Origin: Arenimonas maotaiensis
Lineage (GTDB): Bacteria; Pseudomonadota; Gammaproteobacteria; Xanthomonadales; Xanthomonadaceae
Direction: 5' to 3'
Length of the DNA: 64,000 nucleotides
Assembly: GCF_014638745.1 (NCBI RefSeq)
Contig: NZ_BMFO01000002.1
Coordinates: 310,001-374,000, forward strand
Position numbers and translations under genes: made by a program. A model generated the notes under the pieces. That model did not search any database and was not told the DNA's origin. It saw only the letters and a program-made list of their open reading frames with translations. Below, one piece after another: positions 52,021 through 53,825 of the stretch; within the stretch, counting starts at the first letter, position 1, and each line of letters opens with the position of its first letter.

Positions 52021-52106
52021 GGAGGGATACCCAAGCGGCCAACGGGGGCAGACTGTAAATCTGCTGGCTTACGCCTTCGGTGGTTCGAATCCACCTCCCT
52101 CCACCA
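52021..52106 (+). tRNA. tRNA-Tyr (GTA)
   Basis: 86 bases, class II with a long variable arm, CCA encoded. Acceptor GGAGGGA pairs with TCCCTCC (52096-52102). The anticodon stem GCAGA/TCTGC encloses CTGTAAA, anticodon GTA at 52055-52057. First of three tRNAs ahead of tuf, as in the tufB operon of E. coli. Confidence 0.97.
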
Positions 52107-52139
52107 AGTTGCAAGCGTCGCCGGCTTTAGCTTCACGAA

Positions 52140-52213
52140 GCGGGAGTAGTTCAATGGTAGAACCTCAGCCTTCCAAGCTGATCATGCGGGTTCGATTCCC
52201 GTCTCCCGCTCCA
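52140..52213 (+). tRNA. tRNA-Gly (TCC)
   Basis: 74 bases with CCA encoded. Acceptor GCGGGAG pairs with CTCCCGC (52203-52209). Anticodon stem TCAGC/GCTGA around CTTCCAA gives TCC at 52172-52174. T-arm GGTTCGATTCC. Confidence 0.97.
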
Positions 52214-52256
52214 TTGAACCGACGCCGTTGTAAAGTTTTGAGAGTTTAGTTGCATC

Positions 52257-52332
52257 GCTCACGTAGCTCAGTCGGTAGAGCACTTCCTTGGTAAGGAAGA
52301 GGTCGAAGGTTCGATTCCTTTCGTGAGCACCA
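52257..52332 (+). tRNA. tRNA-Thr (GGT)
   Basis: 76 bases with CCA encoded. Acceptor GCTCACG pairs with CGTGAGC (52322-52328). Anticodon stem CTTCC/GGAAG around TTGGTAA gives GGT at 52290-52292. It lies 62 bases ahead of tuf and is probably in the same primary transcript. Confidence 0.97.
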
Positions 52333-52394
52333 GCTGTGAACCGGTCCGGTCCCGGATTGGCCTTTAACCCCCACAAACTGCTTGAGAGATCATC

Positions 52395-53585
52395 ATGGCA
52401 AAAGGTAAGTTCGAACGTACCAAGCCCCACGTGAACGTGGGCACCATCGGCCACGTGGACCATGGCAAGACCACTCTGACGGCGGCGCTGACCAAGGTGG
52501 GCGCTGAGCGTTTCGGCGGCGAGTTCAAGGCCTATGACGCGATTGACGCGGCGCCGGAAGAGAAGGCTCGCGGCATCACGATTTCGACCGCGCACGTGGA
52601 ATACGAGTCGCCGACCCGCCACTACGCGCACGTCGACTGCCCGGGCCACGCCGACTACGTGAAGAACATGATCACCGGTGCCGCCCAGATGGACGGCGCG
52701 ATTCTGGTGTGCTCGGCCGCCGACGGCCCGATGCCGCAGACCCGCGAACACATCCTGTTGGCCCGCCAGGTGGGCGTGCCGTACATCGTGGTCTACCTGA
52801 ACAAGGCCGACCTGGTGGACGACGCCGAGCTGCTGGAACTGGTCGAGATGGAAGTGCGCGACCTGCTGAGCAAGTACGATTTCCCGGGCGACGACACCCC
52901 GATCATCACCGGTTCGGCGCGTTCGGCGCTGGAAGGCGACCAGTCGGACATCGGCGTGCCGTCGATCATCAAGCTGGTTGACGCGCTGGACACCTGGATT
53001 CCGGAACCGCAGCGCGACATCGACAAGCCGTTCCTGATGCCGGTGGAAGACGTGTTCTCGATTTCGGGCCGCGGTACCGTGGTGACCGGCCGTATCGAAT
53101 CGGGCATCATCAAGGTCGGCGACGAAATCGAAATCGTCGGCATCCGTCCGACCCAGAAGACCACCGTGACCGGCGTGGAAATGTTCCGCAAGCTGCTGGA
53201 CCAGGGTCAGGCGGGCGACAACGCCGGTCTGCTGCTGCGCGGCACCAAGCGTGACGACGTGGAGCGCGGCCAAGTGCTGTGCAAGCCGGGTTCGATCTCG
53301 CCGCACACCGACTTCGAAGCCGAAGTGTACGTGCTGAGCAAGGACGAAGGCGGCCGTCACACCCCGTTCTTCAAGGGCTACCGTCCGCAGTTCTACTTCC
53401 GCACCACCGACGTGACCGGCGCCTGCCAGTTGCCGGAAGGCGTGGAGATGGTGATGCCGGGCGACAACGTGAAGATGGTGGTGAGCCTGATCGCCCCGAT
53501 CGCGATGTCGGAAGGCCTGCGCTTCGCGATCCGCGAAGGCGGCCGTACCGTCGGCGCCGGCGTGGTGGCCAAGATCATCAAGTAA
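52395..53585 (+). CDS. tuf: Elongation factor Tu
   Basis: 396 residues. The GTPase that delivers aminoacyl-tRNA to the ribosome. GHVDHGKTT at 19-27, the effector-loop [18 protein letters not shown] and the NKADL guanine-specificity motif are intact, and domains II and III are complete. GAGAG lies 7-11 bases before the ATG. Upstream it has the tRNA-Tyr/Gly/Thr set of the tufB locus; downstream it has the S10 operon, normally next to tufA. Only this one copy is in the window. Confidence 0.98.
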
Positions 53586-53597
53586 TCCGTTACGCCC

Positions 53598-53619
53598 TCA
53601 GCCGGCTCCGGCCGGCTGA
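53598..53619 (+). terminator. Hairpin after tuf
   Basis: TCAGCCGGC (53598-53606) pairs perfectly with GCCGGCTGA (53611-53619), loop TCCG. There is no T-tract, so termination is likely partial. A longer imperfect stem (GCGAA..CCTCGTGTTCGC, about 53627-53660) follows. Confidence 0.5.
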
Positions 53620-53692
53620 ACACATGCGAAATGAGGACAAGGACGTACCTCGTGTTCGCGCCCAGGACGGGTAAAGATACGGGGTCACGCTG

Positions 53693-53722
53693 TTGACAGA
53701 CAGCTTGCGCCCGTATTACAAT
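53693..53722 (+). promoter_or_regulatory. S10 operon promoter
   Basis: TTGACA (53693-53698) is 18 bases from TACAAT (53717-53722), a strong sigma-70 pair. The predicted start is at about 53728-53730, immediately at the foot of the next hairpin. It lies 104 bases before the rpsJ ATG. Confidence 0.65.
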
Positions 53723-53728
53723 TTACGG

Positions 53729-53764
53729 CTCAGTGGATCAGGATAGATCCGCTGAGTTTTTTCT
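53729..53764 (+). terminator. Terminator-type hairpin in S10 leader (possible attenuator)
   Basis: CTCAGTGGATC (53729-53739) pairs with GATCCGCTGAG (53746-53756), 11 base pairs with one T-G, loop AGGATA, followed by TTTTTTCT. This is a textbook intrinsic terminator. It begins at the predicted start of the S10 transcript. It may end upstream read-through, or act as an attenuator. E. coli S10 leader is controlled by L4 through a U-tracted hairpin, but that leader is longer. A second small stem (GGGAC/GTCCC, 53773-53795) lies before rpsJ. Confidence 0.65.
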
Positions 53765-53825
53765 AGGGGGTCGGGACCGTCCGTGTTCCCGTCCCTGTCG
53801 CTCTTTATAACTGAAGGAATTCGCC

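Follow-up and report, generated by a model that had tools for sequence, protein, structure and literature searches.

The window, i.e., the whole 64,000-nucleotide stretch of Arenimonas maotaiensis DNA analyzed here (part of contig C2 of the source assembly, G000), carries the following genes around the tuf locus:

50873..51964, plus strand: ychF, the left flank of tufB (open reading frame and block-protein search)
52021..52106, plus strand: tRNA-Tyr (gta) (ARAGORN)
52140..52213, plus strand: tRNA-Gly (tcc) (ARAGORN)
52257..52332, plus strand: tRNA-Thr (ggt), 62 bases 5' of tuf (ARAGORN)
52395..53585, plus strand: tuf (EF-Tu), 396 aa, the repeat where the join is made (open reading frame)
53826..54137, plus strand: rpsJ, the first gene of the S10 operon and the right flank of tufA (open reading frame)

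The rpsJ gene starts 240 bases 3' of tuf and is followed by rplC, on the plus strand like the other genes here; ychF occupies the same place in three assemblies of the same genus (G003, G004 and G010). Gene names in the window, as well as on contig C7 described below, are those we take to apply from recognizing the proteins and their order; they are also backed by same-order matches in relatives. An earlier note on this DNA had described ychF and the three tRNA genes as joined through tuf to rpsJ without the block of genes that normally intervenes, and this was confirmed by ARAGORN, open reading frames and tblastn: neither tRNA-Trp nor any member of the secE-to-fusA block was found in the window by tblastn of block proteins (E <= 1e-5 and 40 bits) and by ARAGORN for tRNAs. 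A scaffold gap within the window was considered and rejected, since this sequence contains no N bases. The assignment of the left flank to tufB and of the right flank to tufA also holds, both canonical joins (tRNA-Thr/tuf/tRNA-Trp and fusA/tuf/rpsJ) being present in 8 of 16 same-order genomes (G025, G026, G028, G031, G034, G036, G037 and G040) as well as in the same-genus genome G003.

The essential genes of the block, which the earlier note expected elsewhere if the join is real, are found alone on another contig of the same assembly (2,160,901 bases in 16 contigs, completeness 100). A search of this assembly with tuf yielded nine matches, namely two full genes (one on C2, in the window, and one on C7), the first 42 codons of a third at the opposite end of C7, and six at 31-36% identity that we read as other translational GTPases. 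Contig C7 comprises 16,779 bases and, read on its minus strand, opens exactly with the first base of the tuf start codon (ATG), continues in the order full tuf, tRNA-Trp, secE, nusG, rplK, rplA, rplJ, rplL, rpoB, rpoC, rpsL, rpsG and fusA, and closes with 126 bases from the 5' end of tuf. It is thus the block absent from the window, with a cut at tuf on each side, and a search for a secE-to-fusA contig ending in tuf, which had been proposed as a check, returned it with tuf at both ends. Both fusA and nusG have a single match in the assembly, located in each case on C7. The two ends of C7 overlap identically over 126 bases, which suggests a k-mer graph overlap in assembly. With two tuf genes in the assembly, a natural single-tuf genome was rejected as an explanation.

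The two full tuf genes are 99.7% identical, with 4 differences in 1,191 bases (window positions 52832, 53330, 53334 and 53555), all of them synonymous; exact runs shared between them span 437 and 497 bases, and the identity begins at the ATG and stops 6 bases past the stop codon. Such near-identity of paired tuf genes is normal, judging from duplicate tuf open reading frames in nine relatives compared, which differ at 0 to 8 positions. Searches of the assembly with the ends of tuf (a 5' query of 51 bases and a 3' query of 48 bases, with up to 3 mismatches) located the 5' end in three places (C2 and both ends of C7), whereas two places were obtained for the 3' end (C2 and C7). The 5' end is preceded by tRNA-Thr on C2, by fusA at one end of C7 and by nothing at the other; next to the 3' end lies rpsJ in the case of C2 and tRNA-Trp in that of C7. 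All flanks found, two on the left (tRNA-Thr and fusA) and two on the right (rpsJ and tRNA-Trp), are therefore those of the canonical order, and the only pairing that gives a single chromosome is the canonical one.

Repeat-induced misassembly arises when the flanks of near-identical repeats are paired wrongly, and the tRNA-Thr/tuf/rpsJ join is very likely an error of this kind. As judged from relatives, the order in the organism would be ychF, tRNA-Tyr-Gly-Thr, tufB, tRNA-Trp, secE, nusG, rplKAJL, rpoBC, rpsL, rpsG, fusA, tufA and rpsJ. The assembler, presumably working with reads that were too short, would have been unable to bridge the tuf repeat and would have connected the tufB left flank to the tufA right flank, leaving the block between them as a contig of its own, C7. 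The tuf gene in the window is then probably chimeric, with its left flank derived from tufB and its right flank and tail from tufA. Several features fit this explanation together: near-identical copies, a skipped segment that ends in the repeat, canonical flanks only, and the canonical arrangement in better-assembled relatives. As in known cases of repeat-induced misassembly, C7 ends in the repeat with identical 126-base ends, and sister assemblies break at tuf. The earlier note had offered either recombination between the tuf copies or an assembler merging them. The part that concerns the assembler is supported by C7, but pure collapse is not, as the assembly retains both versions of tuf, including the sites at which they differ, unlike in the loss of a repeat copy; the error most likely lies in the pairing of flanks and not in the loss of a tuf copy. 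As a counter-point, the 4 differing sites might have let an assembler with long read pairs phase the copies. Among the titles and abstract openings listed in the literature on tuf assembly collapse, gene conversion and misassembly, none dealt with assembly errors at tuf. In a plasmid collection, 28 records were matched, none of which reached 80% query coverage, and in the five that were listed the match was confined to tuf.

A real relocation, in which tuf-tuf recombination removed the block and it was re-inserted elsewhere in the chromosome, appears highly improbable. The presence of both halves in the assembly is compatible with it, and recombination between the tuf genes of Salmonella was reportedly described by Abdulkarim and Hughes in 1996, which we count in its favor. 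A further point in its favor comes from contig C1 of the same-order genome G034, where fusA/tuf/rpsJ and tRNA-Thr/tuf/tRNA-Trp (L136 and L137) are separated by ~60 kb and stand in swapped order; this is a candidate real rearrangement, indicating that parts of the cluster may move. Relocation requires new flanks, however, and the tuf ends in the assembly adjoin only tRNA-Thr, fusA, tRNA-Trp and rpsJ, while both ends of C7 lie within tuf or at its edge. The block was sought in this assembly at another chromosomal location, between other flanks, and was not found there.

The same four flanks can also be paired so as to yield a single-tuf chromosome plus a closed circle bearing the block, and tuf-tuf recombination could have produced these two molecules wholly or in a subpopulation, a scenario that we regard as extremely improbable. 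C7 could be closed through its identical 126-base ends into a circle of ~16.65 kb with one tuf, which the contigs alone cannot tell from a linear segment. Such a circle would hold the sole matches to fusA and nusG in the genome plus rpoBC, and it would be filled by block genes with no intergenic gap greater than ~250 bases, apparently leaving no room for a replication gene, which makes an ordinary chromosome by far the likelier of the two pairings. Moreover, lone block contigs and breaks at tuf recur across the genus, as expected of fragmented assembly. It is hardly credible that the join is real and that the block, excised by tuf-tuf recombination, persists in all cells or in a subpopulation as a ~16.65-kb circle that is the sole carrier of essential genes for transcription and translation, the same having happened independently in a second genome of the genus, G007.

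Comparison with 40 relatives, of which 24 belong to the same genus and 16 to the same order, further supports a mis-join. A single tuf so arranged, with rpoBC stably located elsewhere, was sought among them as the outcome that would speak against the earlier note and was not found. Within the genus, both canonical joins are present and free of N in G003 (a single contig with completeness 86), whereas G004 has tRNA-Thr/tuf/tRNA-Trp contiguously and fusA/tuf/rpsJ across a 90-N gap; tRNA-Thr/tuf/tRNA-Trp is also present in G010, and fusA/tuf/rpsJ in G005. A ychF match was obtained in 20 of the 24 genomes. From this side, three contigs (G003, G004 and G010) continue via tuf into tRNA-Trp and one (G007) into rpsJ, while the other 16 stop, 14 of them in tuf or within ~10 bases of its end and two just past tRNA-Thr (G015 and G018). 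For rpsJ, matched in 22 of 24, a total of 21 were examined (G010, contig C201, was left out): three reach fusA via tuf (G003, G005 and, over the gap, G004), G007 reaches tRNA-Thr, and the remaining 17 end inside tuf or, in G021, 277 bases before rpsJ. The block forms a lone contig in 8 of the 24 genomes (G007, G008, G011, G012, G015, G020, G021 and G024), with lengths of 15,649 to 16,438 bases and with tuf at both ends (beside tuf in G021). For the ends of G021 C4 and C25, G015 C6 and G018 C49, and for the fusA end of G018 C204, no tuf match is listed, so that these lie beside tuf at most. Neither fusA (E <= 1e-150) nor nusG (E <= 1e-40) was matched in 7 of the 24 genomes, which are thus uninformative as to the position of the block; a lone block contig is easily lost and may be missing from these assemblies for that reason. 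Contig breaks at tuf are thus the rule for assemblies of this genus, and the contig of the window is most likely one where such a break was bridged wrongly.

Two local features of these assemblies were observed in addition. Both tuf genes of G003 (L122:3311-4497 and L123:6095-7283) are split between reading frames, probably by indel errors of long-read sequencing. On contig C2 of G004 (L120:3521-3743), the tail of tuf is repeated as 133 identical bases beyond the 90-N gap and before rpsJ, so that here, too, a scaffold join falls at the tuf repeat.

The join itself recurs outside the source assembly. In G007 of the same genus, tRNA-Thr/tuf/rpsJ lies on C1 without N, and the block stands alone on C9 with ~90 bases of tuf at each end. 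In the same order, G027 has the tRNA-Thr/tuf/rpsJ join without N and no fusA match (E <= 1e-150) or nusG match (E <= 1e-40), as would be expected if the block contig had been omitted from the assembly; a single metagenome-assembled contig, L041, shows the join without N as well. As a counter-point to misassembly, these three cases could be read as a real recurring arrangement. Elsewhere in the order, G038 has fusA-tuf at a contig end, and a tuf match at E <= 1e-100 was absent in 6 of the 16 genomes.

The arrangement can be compared with the tufB-secE-rpoBC-str-S10 cluster of Proteobacteria (PMC8046335). Genes, orientation and the four tuf flanks agree with that cluster in the form it takes in G003, and the same four flanks are seen in the 8 same-order genomes; unlike in that cluster, the source assembly is cut at both tuf genes, with the outer flanks joined and the middle on C7. 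In a published survey, the seven operons of the cluster were still connected in only 38 of 103 Gammaproteobacteria (PMC8046335), so that real separations do occur in this class, a point that counts against a mis-join. Nevertheless, the unusual gene order most likely reflects an ordinary assembly error without biological meaning. The case serves mainly as a warning: gene-order studies and synteny-based annotation that rely on draft contigs would infer a dramatic rearrangement in a highly conserved operon cluster both here and in G007.

In a broader comparison of 80 listed tuf loci, several of which are cut at tuf or have no recognized neighbor within 800 bases, tRNA-Thr/tuf/rpsJ is seen in L041 only. 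The reciprocal order fusA/tuf/tRNA-Trp is present in L014, L025 and L079, on contigs of 3 to 5 kb, perhaps through the same kind of error or, alternatively for the Chlamydiae contig L079, as a natural order. The best tuf identity among the 80 named loci is 91%, with two Dyella genomes (Lysobacterales), in keeping with the reference of the earlier note to xanthomonads. In Halochromatium roseum (L029:10001-11415), a second tuf match lies between tRNA-Thr and the main match, ~100 bases upstream of the latter.
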